DNA from: Blastopirellula marina
GTDB taxonomy: Bacteria > Planctomycetota > Planctomycetia > Pirellulales > Thermoguttaceae
Length of the DNA stretch: 51,695 nucleotides
Assembly: GCA_020721965.1 (NCBI GenBank)
Contig: DYLS01000015.1
Span: 1 to 51,695 of the forward strand
Direction: 5' to 3'
Part shown: in pieces, positions 137 through 49,200 of the stretch
Layout: each line of letters opens with the position of its first letter
Position numbering within the stretch: the stretch's first letter is position 1
Position numbers and translations under genes: made by a program
Notes under the pieces: model-generated
What the model was told of the DNA's origin: nothing
The model's database searches: none
Seen by the model: the letters and a program-made list of their open reading frames with translations, nothing else

Positions 137-299
137 TTGGACCTTTGCAAAGTCCTCAATCCCCCCTGGGAGAGGGTGGCAAACAGGAGCGCTGCGCAAT
201 TCAGGAAGACAGGGAAAGCCGCTATCATGGGAAAGTGGCTTCGCCCTACCATTTCCCGAGGGAAGGGGCGATCTGCGACCCCAAGTTGCAAAAATCCAG
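137..299 (+). repeat. Miniature inverted-repeat element, family A, copy 1 (163 bp)
   Basis: The left end reads TTGGACCTTTGCAA (137-150). The right end reads TTGCAAAAATCCAG (286-299), its imperfect inverted complement. The flanks TTACCA (131-136) and TCACCA (300-305) look like a 6-bp target duplication with one mismatch. The interior aligns along its length with the copies at 17745-17910 and, reverse-complemented, 29408-29573. It has no coding capacity. It is the most diverged copy and probably the oldest. Confidence 0.8.
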
Positions 300-17082: not shown

Positions 17083-18139
17083 ATGGCGATGATGGATGCT
17101 ATCGAGGGCTGTCGTCTTCGCTTGGATAACCGCATGGTCGAGCATGGGGAAACTTTTACGGCGGGCCGCGTGCAGATTCACGTGGGCGACTGTCGGCAGG
17201 TTTTGATTCAATTGCCGGCCGATTCCGTACAGTGCTGCATCACCTCGCCCCCTTATTGGGGACTGCGAGATTACGAACATCCCGACCAGCTCGGCGTGGA
17301 AGAGTCACCAGAAGATTATGTCCGCAGCCTGGTGGAAGCGTTTCGAGGGGTTCGGCGAGTCCTTCGATCAGATGGCACGCTGTGGCTCAATGTGGGGGAT
17401 GCCTACGCGAGGAACGGGGGGACGGGCCTGTGCAGCCCCAACGCCAAGGTGGGCAATACGCGCAAGCTCATTCAAAGGCGGAACTGCAAAGTGCCCCCCT
17501 GCTGGGGCTTGAAAGATCGCGATCTGATGGGCTTGCCCTGACGCGTGGCCTTTGCGATTCAAATGGATGGTTGGATTCTGCACGCTCACATCGTTTGGGT
17601 CAAGCGAGCGCCCATGCCAGAAAGCGTCCGCAATCGCCCCTCTCGCGCCACGGAAGATATCTTTCTCTTCGCCAAGACCTCAAAGTATTACTACAATAAT
17701 CAAGCAGTTCGAGAAAGGAGCGGCGCGAACCTTCGGAATTATTACTGGACTTTTGCAAACTGCTCCCCTCTCCCTCTGGGAGAGGGCCAGGGGGTGAGGG
17801 TTTGGTCAAATCAGACAAACAAGGCAAACCTTTTCGCGCCTAATTGCCCACAGGCTAACCCTCTCCTAGGGGCCTAGAGGGGCTTGTGCCCCCAATTTGC
17901 AAAAGTCCAGTTATTAGCTGCTTTCGCCCGAGCCTTCCGATTCCGATCATCCCGCGGCGTTTCCCAGCGAACTGGTGCGTCGGTGCATTCTGTTGGGGTC
18001 GCGGCCAGGCGACATGATCCTCGATCCCTTTTCCGGATCAGGGACAACAGACGTCGTAGCGGCCGAATTGCAGCGGCAGGCCATTTTGATCGAGCTGAAC
18101 GCCGACTACGCACAGCAGTCATTGAAGCTCGTTCAATAG
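17083..18139 (+). pseudogene. Disrupted beta-class DNA methyltransferase (m4C or m6A)
   Basis: The remains of an S-adenosylmethionine-dependent DNA methyltransferase. The first part carries the catalytic motif SPPYWGLRDY and runs to a TGA at 17539-17541. That codon sits where the family has tryptophan in a GLPWRVAFA-type motif, so it looks like TGG changed to TGA. Translation in the same frame continues with RVAFAIQMDGW, ESVRNRPSRATEDIFLF and YYYNNQAVRE. A family A miniature element (17745-17910, with TTATTA duplicated) then interrupts the gene. Beyond it the C-terminal part resumes in a different frame, with the AdoMet-binding motif DPFSGSGTTDVV, ending at the TAG at 18137. Removing the element and one TTATTA restores the frame but leaves a TAG at the junction. 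No restriction endonuclase gene is adjacent. Confidence 0.9.
17745..17910 (+). repeat. Miniature inverted-repeat element, family A, copy 2 (166 bp)
   Basis: Perfect 14-bp termini, CTGGACTTTTGCAA (17745-17758) and TTGCAAAAGTCCAG (17897-17910), are flanked by a perfect 6-bp duplication, TTATTA (17739-17744 and 17911-17916). It sits inside the methyltransferase gene and adds 172 bp in all, shifting the frame by one. No transposase is encoded. Confidence 0.92.
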
Positions 18140-29401: not shown

Positions 29402-29407
29402 TCCTAA

Positions 29408-29573
29408 CTGGACTTTTGTAACCTGTGTTCATAAGCTCCCCCCTTTCGTCCGGAAATGGCCGGGTGAGAGCAGTTTACTGCGAAAACGGCTTTCGCTGTT
29501 TTGCCTGACTTGACCAAGCGCGAGACTTGTCACCCCATCTCAGAGGGGGATCAAGCACTTTGCAAAAGTCCGG
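29408..29573 (-). repeat. Miniature inverted-repeat element, family A, copy 3 (166 bp)
   Basis: The termini are CTGGACTTTTGTAA (29408-29421) and TTGCAAAAGTCCGG (29560-29573). Perfect 6-bp flanks TCCTAA (29402-29407 and 29574-29579) are the target duplication. It is exactly as long as copy 2, and its interior matches copies 1 and 2 in reverse orientation. The left TCCTAA begins on the base after the nrfA stop, so the insertion did not damage the gene. Confidence 0.92.
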
Positions 29574-29588
29574 TCCTAAATCGCAGGG

Positions 29589-45906: not shown

Positions 45907-48900
45907 ATGACACAGGCAATGACTTCTCAGACCGAACCGACTCCACTAGGGGCCGCTGCCGCAAGCCTTGACCCGGTTCGCGATTCCGACCCCGCTCAGC
46001 GCGGCGGCCTCACCGGCACACTCGCCGGGAGCGTCATGTTGGTGATGGCCGCGGCCGTTCTCCAACGCGGCGTGGGTTTCATCCGCGCAACCTGGTTTTG
46101 CCGACAACTCGACCCCCGAGAATTGGGGCTATGGGATGCCGCCTTCGGTTTCCTGATGACGGCCGGGCCGCTGATCGTCCTGGCCCTGGCTGGCTGCCTG
46201 GGGCGGTATGTCGAGCACTACCGGAGCCGCGGGCGATTGGGGACCTTCGTACGGCGCACGGCGACGGCCTACGCCCTTTTGGCCGTCCTGGGCACGGCCG
46301 TGATCTTTCTGGCCGCGGAGCCCCTGGCCAGCCTTCTCTTCAACGACCGCCAGCAAGTGGGGACCGTCCGCCTATTGGCCGGTGTGCTGCTGATCGTCAC
46401 CGCGTTCAACTTTACGTACGAACTGATGACCGCTCTCCGTCGCACCACCTGGATCGCCGGTTTGCAGTTGACCAATAGCCTGCTCTTCGCAGCCATCGGC
46501 GCGGGATTGCTGCTTTGTTGGCAGGCTACCGCCGTGAGCGTGATCCTGGCCTACGGCGCGGCGTGCGCTGTGACGGTCGTAGCGGCGTTGTGGGGGCTGC
46601 GCAATTATCCTTTCCACGATTCCCAGTCGGGAAGTCCGCCAACGCACCGCCAATTCTGGCCCAAATTATTGCTCTTTAGCGTGTCCATTTGGGCCGCCTC
46701 GACCGTGTCGAACCTGTTCGAGACGGCCGACCGATACATGATCTTGCATCTCTTGCCCGATGGTCCAGCCGCCGCCCTCACCCGGCTGGGCGACTACCAC
46801 GCATCGCGATTGGTCCCCACCTTGATGGTCTCGCTTGCCGCCCTGGTCGCCGCGGTTGCCATGCCGCACTTGAGCCACGAATGGGAGGCGGGCAGGCACG
46901 CTGCCGTGGGCGCCCAAGTGCGATTGTTGCTGAAGCTCTTTGGCGGCCTGCTTCTTTTAGCCTCGGCCGTTCTGCTCTGGCTGGTACCCGTACTCTTCGG
47001 CGTCCTGTTTGCGGGCAAATATCCTGCGGGATTGGCCATCCTGCCCCTCACCATCATCTACTGCTTATGGTATGCCATGTTCGTGATCCTCCAGAACTAC
47101 GTCATCTGCTGGGAAAAGGCCTCCCTGGCGGGAGTGGCGATGGCACTGGGTTTGGCTGTGAACATCGCGTTGAATGGCCTCCTGCTGCCGATTTTCGGGT
47201 TGCCGGGCGCGGTGGCCGCTACCGCCACGGCAAACTTCGCGGCCCTCGCATTGCTGGCCGTGATGTGCCGTGGCCTCGGTTGGCAGCTCGATCGCGGTAC
47301 CGCCTTCGCCTTCGCCCTCCCTCTGTTCGCGCTGGCCGAACCGGCAATCTTCTCGGCCGTGCTGGGCGGCGTCATCGTTTGGGCATGGTGGGGTAAAACC
47401 CTTCTTACCCCCGAAGAAAAACGATTGATCGAGGCATACCTGAAACGTATCCTGCCCCTTTCCCGCCAGCGGTCCGACATCCCTGCGGACGGCGGGGCGG
47501 GTTCGCCGGCGTCGGGCCTCACGGCCTCTTCTACGGTCCGTACCACGGTGTCTTCTACGGCTTGTTCAACGGTCGCGTCCACGGATCGTTCCACAGTCTC
47601 GTCCACGGTCTCTTCTCCGGTTTCGTCTCCGGTTTCGTCTCCAGTATCTTCAACCGTCTCCTCTCCGGTGTCTGCGACCGTCTCGTCTCCGGTCTCTTCC
47701 ACGGCCCATCCGCGATTGGCATTCGAACCGCAAGCCCAGAACGCGGCACCAGCCGTCGTGGGGGTCTCCCGGCCTGCACGGACCGAGAGCAAGGCCCTGT
47801 CGCTTGGCACAACACAAGTCGCGAAGAATCCCATTTCTCTCCACCCCGCACAACTTGAGAGGAAACCCATGTCTCTCCGCACTGCCCAGTCCATCCGGTA
47901 CGCCCCAATCAGCCCCTTCTGCCGTCGCCACGTCCATCGGCCGCTGGGAAACCGCGAACCGCTGCGTGTCATGTTCGTCATCACCTGCATGCCCGTAGGA
48001 GGTGCGGAAAGGTTGCTAGTGGAAATTGTGCGGCGGCTGGACCGGCAGCGTTTCCAGCCGGAATTGTGTTGCCTGAAGTATCTGGGACCACAGGGAGAGG
48101 TGCTCGCTGAGGAGGTGCCCACCTTCTCGGGCCTATTGGCGAACAAATATGACCTTCGCGTTCTGCCGCGTTTGACGCGGTTGATGCGGCAGCGACGGAT
48201 CGATGCTGTGATAACAGTAGGGACGGGCGGGGACAAAATGTTTTGGGGGCGATTGGCGGCGTTTCTGGCGGGCGTGCCCGTCATCGCCTCGGCCCTCCAT
48301 TCCACCGGCCTTCCCGACCACGTGGAGCGACTCAATCGTTTGCTGGCCCCCATCACGGACGCTTTCATCGGGGTCGCCGCAAGCCATGGACGCTACTTGG
48401 CCGAGCACGAAGGCTGCCCAGCCGATCGGGTGCAAGTGATCGTCAACGGCGTGGATACTCTCCGCTTTCGCCCCATGCCGCCCGATTACGAGCTGCGCCG
48501 CCAGCTCAGCGCAGAGGAGCACCACCACGTCGCGGCGATCGTGGCGGCACTGCGACCGGAGAAGAATCACGAACTCTTTCTCCAGGCGGCCGCGAGGATA
48601 TTCGCCGTGGACCCAGAGGCCCGATTTTGGATCATCGGCGATGGCTGGCGGCGTGAATCCCTGGAGCGCATGTCCGCCACCTTGCTGCCGCCCGGCATCG
48701 TGCATTTCCTGGGCACCCGGGGTGACGTCCCCGAACTCTTGTCCTGCACGGATGTGGTAGTGCTCAGCTCGCACATGGAAGCCAATCCGCTCTCCATTCT
48801 CGAGGCGATGGCTTGCGGCAAGCCCGTGGTGGCCACCCGCGTCGGCTCGATCCCGGAAAATATCGACGACGGCGTCCACGGCTGTTTAGTGCCGCCCGGA

Positions 48901-49200
48901 GATGCCCAGGCCTTGGCGGACCGCTGTCTGGAACTCTTTCGCAATCCACAGTTGGCCCAAGCCATGGGGCTGGCCGGCCATGCCCGGGTGATGCGGCAGG
49001 CCTCGATCGAACGCACCGTCCTCGGATACGAAGACCTGATCCTGCGAATTTATGCCGCCAAATGCGGTGGATCTATACCAGATCGCGATACCGCACCGAA
49101 CGAGGTCCAACAGGAGAGCCGCCGCCAAAAAGATGCCTTCCTCGCCGTATGCGACACCGAAATCCCCGCATCCGAAGCAGCGCCGGTCTTGATGCAGTGA
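45907..49200 (+). CDS. Flippase-GT4 glycosyltransferase fusion (or two in-frame genes)
   Basis: One open frame of 1097 aa. Residues about 35-510 are a Wzx-like polysaccharide flippase with 12-14 transmembrane helices (GGLTGTLAGSVMLVMAAAVL, then LQRGVGFIRATWF). Residues about 540-600 are a Ser/Val/Thr/Pro repeat coded by 12-bp tandem units, followed by three 12-residue SLxxxQ repeats (632-667). Residues about 685-1060 are a GT4 (GT-B) glycosyltransferase: FVITCMPVGGAERLLVEIVR, VIVNGVDTLRFRP, IVAALRPEKNHELFLQAA, and EANPLSILEAMACGKPVVAT with the ExxxxxxxE motif. The ATG at 47869 has a good Shine-Dalgarno, so the GT4 part could be translated separately. It would export lipid-linked units and add sugars in the same pathway as the neighbouring genes. 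Confidence 0.8.
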   Translation: MTQAMTSQTEPTPLGAAAASLDPVRDSDPAQRGGLTGTLAGSVMLVMAAAVLQRGVGFIRATWFCRQLDPRELGLWDAAFGFLMTAGPLIVLALAGCLGRYVEHYRSRGRLGTFVRRTATAYALLAVLGTAVIFLAAEPLASLLFNDRQQVGTVRLLAGVLLIVTAFNFTYELMTALRRTTWIAGLQLTNSLLFAAIGAGLLLCWQATAVSVILAYGAACAVTVVAALWGLRNYPFHDSQSGSPPTHRQFWPKLLLFSVSIWAASTVSNLFETADRYMILHLLPDGPAAALTRLGDYHASRLVPTLMVSLAALVAAVAMPHLSHEWEAGRHAAVGAQVRLLLKLFGGLLLLASAVLLWLVPVLFGVLFAGKYPAGLAILPLTIIYCLWYAMFVILQNYVICWEKASLAGVAMALGLAVNIALNGLLLPIFGLPGAVAATATANFAALALLAVMCRGLGWQLDRGTAFAFALPLFALAEPAIFSAVLGGVIVWAWWGKTLLTPEEKRLIEAYLKRILPLSRQRSDIPADGGAGSPASGLTASSTVRTTVSSTACSTVASTDRSTVSSTVSSPVSSPVSSPVSSTVSSPVSATVSSPVSSTAHPRLAFEPQAQNAAPAVVGVSRPARTESKALSLGTTQVAKNPISLHPAQLERKPMSLRTAQSIRYAPISPFCRRHVHRPLGNREPLRVMFVITCMPVGGAERLLVEIVRRLDRQRFQPELCCLKYLGPQGEVLAEEVPTFSGLLANKYDLRVLPRLTRLMRQRRIDAVITVGTGGDKMFWGRLAAFLAGVPVIASALHSTGLPDHVERLNRLLAPITDAFIGVAASHGRYLAEHEGCPADRVQVIVNGVDTLRFRPMPPDYELRRQLSAEEHHHVAAIVAALRPEKNHELFLQAAARIFAVDPEARFWIIGDGWRRESLERMSATLLPPGIVHFLGTRGDVPELLSCTDVVVLSSHMEANPLSILEAMACGKPVVATRVGSIPENIDDGVHGCLVPPGDAQALADRCLELFRNPQLAQAMGLAGHARVMRQASIERTVLGYEDLILRIYAAKCGGSIPDRDTAPNEVQQESRRQKDAFLAVCDTEIPASEAAPVLMQ
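47524..47703 (+). repeat. In-frame tandem array, 12-bp period (15 units)
   Basis: Fifteen 12-bp units with consensus GTCTCKTCYACG run without slippage and encode SSTV/SSPV repeats. They are followed by three 36-bp units (47800-47835, 47836-47871, 47872-47907) encoding SLxxxQ repeats. Together they make up most of the linker between the flippase and GT4 parts. The opposite strand also stays open. Confidence 0.85.
47857..47871 (+). promoter_or_regulatory. Internal ribosome binding site and ATG before the GT4 part
   Basis: GAGAGGA (47857-47863) is followed after five nt by an ATG (47869-47871) in the same frame as the upstream flippase. The ATG is the last codon of the second 36-bp repeat; the matching codon in the first repeat is ATT with a poorer upstream sequence. 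It could start a separate GT4 protein of about 443 aa. Confidence 0.5.

Follow-up and report, generated by a model that had tools for sequence, protein, structure and literature searches.

The window analysed here, that is the whole stretch of 51,695 nucleotides from a member of the Thermoguttaceae (Planctomycetota, Pirellulales), contains a DNA methylase gene (17083-18121, forward strand) that is split by a short element and is otherwise broken as well; the portion before the insertion matched PF01555 with 38.8 bits. This element, copy 2 (17745-17910, forward strand, 166 bp), begins with the 14-bp terminal inverted repeat CTGGACTTTTGCAA (17745-17758, forward strand) and ends with its partner (17897-17910, reverse strand), both perfect, and is bracketed by the 6-bp repeat TTATTA (17739-17744 and 17911-17916). 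Two further copies are present. Copy 1 (137-299, forward strand, 163 bp) has 2 mismatches in one terminus and 1 in the other and lies between TTACCA (131-136) and TCACCA (300-305), which differ at one position. Copy 3 (29408-29573, reverse strand, 166 bp), with one mismatch in each terminus, lies between two copies of TCCTAA (29402-29407 and 29574-29579) in the orientation opposite to copies 1 and 2. Perfect termini at both ends are thus confined to copy 2 among the window copies. The first-pass annotation of this DNA had described the three copies with these positions, lengths, orientations and flanks, as well as their common 14-bp termini, and all of this was borne out. With up to 2 mismatches allowed, the terminus matched seven sites in the window, where 0.26 were expected and none of 100 shuffles reached seven. 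Six of them are the ends of the three copies; the seventh (828-841) is unpaired and lies within an ORF. Elsewhere in the window, an ORF of 1097 aa (45907-49200) resembles, by eye, a polysaccharide flippase and a glycosyltransferase joined by a low-complexity link of SSTVSSPVS-like repeats and is a possible fusion.

The genome of origin (G000; 4.95 Mb in 380 contigs, 97% complete) held 48 pairs of perfect termini spaced 130-160 bp apart, the reversed-pattern control giving none. With one mismatch allowed, single termini numbered 151 + 147 (control 0), which corresponds to about 150 copies by the count of ends, if nearly all of them are paired. The earlier expectation that three copies in the window announce many in the genome was thereby met. 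Copy 2 belongs to a young subfamily of 21 copies with a mean pairwise identity of 0.934, copies 1 and 3 to an older, degenerate set of 29 copies with 0.720. Conservation in the old set was 0.99-1.0 for the ends versus 0.77-0.79 for the interior, a comparison biased by the picking of most copies by their perfect ends. In one copy of this genome (L179, contig C110) the right end was repeated (13 bp), and the 6-bp duplication was perfect only with the outer version.

A search of related genomes with these ends, as proposed in the first-pass annotation, found perfect-ended pairs in 5 of 147 genomes, the own one included: 57 pairs in a second Thermogutta genome (G003), 2 in G043 and one each in G032 and G014. 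Two further congeners, G001 and G002, had neither perfect-ended pairs nor bare termini; across the family, a bare terminus was present in 20 of 119 genomes. The 55 copies compared in G003 had a mean pairwise identity of 0.941, and element lengths in the two Thermogutta genomes ranged from 162 to 187 bp. A named collection yielded 63 stretches with a terminus pair, 56 of them from Thermogutta sp. MAG AS27yjCOA_190, which is G003; the remainder came from three Pirellulales MAGs (four stretches), a Phycisphaerae MAG (one) and an Elusimicrobia MAG (two). MITE-like elements in which these ends enclose unlike interiors were found in G008 (203 bp), in the Phycisphaerae (180 bp) and in the Elusimicrobia (176 and 180 bp); the unlikeness was judged by eye and, for the latter two lineages, by clustering as well. 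A single pair of 14-bp ends hence encloses unlike interiors in two phyla. The viral contigs searched contained no MITE pairs and no transposase relatives.

Some shorter or compound arrangements were also seen. A 73-bp form, with one hairpin between the same ends, occurred in G043 (L061, L063, L064), where it resembles a deletion derivative of the 166-bp form, and in G014 (C126, 10-82). In G008, a 22-bp palindrome consisting of two fused ends alone, with near-duplicated flanks (L053, 1446-1467; L089, 2477-2498), may be either a minimal element or an excision scar. In G003, an ORF of 589 aa lies between two MITEs about 2 kb apart (L051, contig C346), the first of which has its own perfect CTCTAA duplication. 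This 2135-bp terminus pair was considered as an autonomous element and rejected, being two MITEs around an ORF with weak TPR matches only.

The 6-bp target duplication that the first-pass annotation had read from three copies turned out to be general in the family. Flanks were identical over 6 bp in 24 of the 49 own-genome rows (which include one element twice, with alternative right ends), in 36 of 58 from G003 and in 5 of 7 from other genomes; mismatched pairings of flanks gave expectations of 0.21, 0.32 and 0.00, respectively. Flanks at most one base apart were present in 33, 42 and 5 of these rows. Among the 25 own-genome rows without identical flanks, 16 differed at two or more positions, and the two Elusimicrobia copies had no 6-bp duplication. 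Identical 7-bp flanks occurred in 2, 7 and 0 rows (9 of 114), identical 4-bp flanks in none of the 49, 58 and 7 rows. The duplicated 6-mers tended to start with T and to end with A. Such a T....A target could mean a 4-bp duplication next to a longer inverted repeat, and it therefore matters that targets with another end base, CTACAA, CTCTAA, TCCCAT, CAGTAA and TTGAAC, were also duplicated in full.

The insertion of copy 2 also left a readable empty site. Congener G001 has an uninterrupted ortholog of the DNA methylase gene, a 313-aa ORF, and when the two window flanks were placed on it separately and without gaps, their overlap was exactly 6 bp whether flanks of 60, 90, 120 or 150 were used. 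Identities to this ortholog were 37/60, 55/90, 75/120 and 98/150 for the left flank and 39/60, 63/90, 83/120 and 104/150 for the right one. The first-pass annotation had named empty sites without a single copy of the 6-bp flank as evidence against its reading; G001 shows the single copy, at one of the three window sites. For copy 3, the intergenic flank in G003 has diverged and was uninformative. Target duplication is thus of constant length: 6 bp prevails among the copies with a duplication and is also the length at the empty site.

These observations bear on a rival view in which the copies would be intergenic repeats without mobility, either REP/BIME-like or hairpins of an RNA type, spread by recombination or RAYT and not by a transposase. 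Hairpin interiors do occur in several relatives: the interiors of eight copies from other genomes folded with z-scores of -5.0 to -10.4, and the triplex motif described below is by itself a dispersed repeat in many genomes. However, the interiors of the three window copies gave z-scores of -2.0, -0.9 and 0.1, no more extreme than those of 20 control stretches, which averaged -0.12 and went down to -2.58; with its ends included, copy 2 reached -5.0. The 6-bp duplications and the 6-bp overlap at the empty site count against immobile repeats as a full account, as do 14-bp ends identical across two phyla and the existence of a transposase-encoding element with the same ends. We consider an origin as immobile repeats extremely improbable. 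The copies have terminal inverted repeats, are short, lack a transposase gene and are dispersed in multiple copies, as MITEs are, and they are very probably a non-autonomous MITE, moved by the transposase of an insertion sequence of ~1.43 kb whose 14-bp ends are identical to theirs.

That insertion sequence came to light in other genomes. In G004, three termini lead into a transposase frame that is broken or cut each time. When 396 genomes from the order were searched with a 177-aa piece of this transposase, 10 contained relatives, and in five of the ten (G004, G007, G018, G104 and G218) a terminus with 0-1 mismatch adjoins the transposase. The neighbouring terminus had 2-3 mismatches in G015, G069 and G078, sites with 3 mismatches only were present in G379, and there was none in G155. 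In G218 the element is complete (L100, 880-2311): 1432 bp with both ends, the right one with 1 mismatch, and an open frame of 449 aa inside; in the four other genomes it is partial or broken. The first-pass annotation had supposed that a relative elsewhere mobilises the copies and had proposed looking for a full-length element with the same ends, a transposase and 6-bp duplications. The G218 element supplies the ends and the transposase, and from the shared ends we infer that such a transposase moves the MITE in trans; the duplication around the G218 element, the one copy seen with both ends, is imperfect (TTATAT/TTATTA). That the autonomous element duplicates 6 bp is deduced from the MITE copies and from related insertion sequences. 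The 1.43-kb insertion sequence is likely to be the mobiliser of the MITE.

This autonomous partner, present in other genomes, was not found in G000. Searches for relatives of this transposase found none in G000 or G003, the two genomes with the most copies of the 166-bp form. Conversely, G004, G007, G018 and G104 had no perfect-ended 166-bp copies (G218 was outside that search), so that the MITE and the candidate mobiliser did not turn up in the same genome. The copies in G000 may therefore now be orphans, or the insertion sequence may be unassembled. Two DDE_5 elements, one with both ends in G043 (L091) and one truncated by a contig end in G008 (L092), were set aside as mobilisers: they are related, but their ends are CTGCACTTTCTGAA or CTGCACTTTCTTAA.

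That no IS701-like gene was found in the MITE-rich genomes speaks for a different transposase as mobiliser, for example one of the DDE family IS1634, with the IS701-like elements sharing the ends by chance or descent. For IS1634, duplications of 5-6 bp in AT-rich sequence are given in the available text of De Palmenaer et al. 2008 (PMC2266710), and G000 has three PF01609 transposase fragments; in L017, one of these and a degenerate MITE are some 1.2 kb apart. These fragments were rejected as the mobiliser, since the nearest terminus-like sites belong to that degenerate MITE and do not flank them as ends. Moreover, the terminus with 0-1 mismatch adjoins one and the same transposase type in five genomes, the IS1634 model gave just 20.5 bits on the G218 transposase (cut-off 100), and relatives with 6-7-bp duplications lie, like that transposase, outside the clade of 4-bp elements described next. 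A mobiliser of another family is, in our estimate, very unlikely.

The transposases exceeded the cut-off of 150 bits of the IS701 model NF033540 (L100, 180.8 bits; L099, 172.5 bits). In the available text of De Palmenaer et al. 2008 (PMC2266710), nearly all members of the IS701 family are described as duplicating exactly 4 bp of target, and the family is given a length of 1400-1550 bp and the end consensus ---YACT-Y--YR. The length of the G218 element falls within this range, and the ends CTGGACTTTTGCAA share ACT-Y--YR, all consensus positions matching except position 4, which is G instead of Y. The duplication of the MITE, however, is 6 bp (sometimes 7) and not the 4 bp of this description. 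Ends and duplications were compared with the transposase tree. They were sought in 38 and 20 more IS loci, many of which had no clear ends and were left unlabelled; nine readings gave 4 bp and eight gave 6-7 bp (four copies in G489, one each in G615, G471, G512 and G778). Several labels involved a choice: L232, labelled 4, can be read as ACTAGT (6 bp) or, if the inverted repeat is taken as longer, as CTAG (4 bp), L259 (6 or 4) was labelled 6 and L364 (7, 5 or 3) was labelled 7, whereas L358 (5-6) and L242 (5 to 9) stayed unlabelled, L242 sitting in the 4-bp clade. A first tree omitted loci without a phmmer match; for the final one, 12 loci were added via a profile and L110, a long branch, was removed. 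In this tree of 34 rows all nine 4-bp rows fell into one clade of 18 with support 100/98, and all eight 6-7-bp rows as well as the CTGGACTTTTGCAA rows L099 and L100 lay outside it; the tree is midpoint-rooted, and the rows outside need not form one clade. With its transposase outside the supported clade of all nine 4-bp relatives, the 6 bp of the MITE agrees with the position of the transposase. The putative mobiliser group is IS701-like rather than classical IS701, and the IS701-like element outside the 4-bp clade makes a convincing candidate mobiliser. More widely, this suggests that elements labelled IS701 may divide by duplication length, 4 versus 6-7 bp, in a manner matching the transposase tree.

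As for the interior of the MITE, an alignment of copies from Thermogutta and from three more Pirellulales showed two facing modules in common, the left one composed of CCCTCTCCC..GGGAGAGGG..GGGTGAGGG and the right one inverted, with a TTAGGGTGAGGG junction. From our own reading of Table 1 in the available text of Holder et al. 2015 (PMC4666352), we take the left module for a type B-like form and the right one for type A of the G/C-rich intrastrand triplex motif described there. In copy 2 the left module (17766-17800, forward strand, starting 21 bp from the left end) matched the pattern CCCTCTCCC-loop-GGGAGAGGG-loop-GGGTGAGGG exactly, and the right one (17847-17882, reverse strand), read from sequence, appears as a degenerate type A-like motif with a TTAG junction that is inverted and faces the first; this second motif was better preserved in other genera than in copy 2. 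An exact-pattern search of G000 found no exact motif in the old copies 1 and 3. Across G000, 17 of 18 exact motifs began 21 bp inside a terminus with 0-1 mismatch, the eighteenth did not; 13 of the 17 also had a right end with 0-1 mismatch, three were cut by a contig end and one was without a right end. The exact motif was absent from G001 and G002, and Thermogutta thus offers a motif-bearing genome (G000) for comparison with genomes without an exact match.

More widely, the motif was present in 101 of 397 genomes of the class, the reversed control giving none in the rows inspected. The MITE matched 45 plasmid records, none over more than 80% of the element, and among the matches listed, 30 records matched the triplex module only (MITE positions 17-60). 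Six plasmid loci from cyanobacteria and Cupriavidus, five with outward-facing pairs and one with a single motif, had no such ends by eye. In Pseudanabaena galeata plasmids (L371, L372, L376), triplex motifs were observed inside annotated DNA methyltransferase or DUF559 genes. Motif pairs of other Planctomycetota (8 distinct from G042, 7 from G955/G922/G889, 3 from G914 and 2 others), inspected by eye, had flanks without a common terminal repeat beyond the motif's own hairpin, and the motif pairs at five E. coli loci, again by eye, had no such ends and no clear duplications. Since the motif occurs elsewhere without these ends, the MITE is one carrier in the order and not a general explanation of the motif's spread. 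Conversely, the same ends around unlike interiors indicate that the triplex motif is not needed for mobility.

Taken together, a DDE transposase of the ~1.43-kb insertion sequence would recognise the 14-bp ends and insert the element at T/A-rich 6-bp targets, which would be duplicated in the process; it would presumably act on the MITE in trans, by the standard DDE reaction. The same ends around unlike interiors in G008, Phycisphaerae and Elusimicrobia suggest that recognition depends on the ends. The interior would then be passenger DNA, an inverted triplex-motif pair in Thermogutta and other Pirellulales and unlike sequence in other lineages. We found no earlier description of this MITE family in the open-licence literature, although ISfinder or a subscription journal may hold one; the same literature gave no match for GGACTTTTGCAA, nothing joining the IS701 family and MITE, and nothing relevant by title joining Thermogutta and MITE.

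In conclusion, the family is ordinary in its mechanism and more interesting in its distribution and in its cargo, which is unexpected. As in bacterial MITEs, the copies are shorter than 200 bp, have terminal inverted repeats and target duplications, carry no gene and are numerous, and their ends are identical to those of a transposase-encoding element. They differ in that the interior, by eye against L100, is unlike a shortened mobiliser, and in that several unlike interiors are found within the same ends. The available text of Holder et al. 2015 (PMC4666352) puts the triplex motif in over 260 genomes, lists five pairs in inverted arrangement from E. coli (TMECO) and reports triplex formation of the E. 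coli motif in vitro, not shown in vivo; that text states that no association with transposons or transposases was found. The exact fit of the left module of copy 2 and the inverted array of two modules in the Pirellulales copies link the MITE to this motif, and four of the five E. coli pairs described there face inward, as do the modules of the MITE. A wider reading, in which the "genomic instability" reported around triplex motifs would be partly transposition, seems rather unlikely to us. Unlinked to mobile elements in that account, which left its dispersal unexplained, the motif lies here inside one, and the MITE gives it a mobile carrier.
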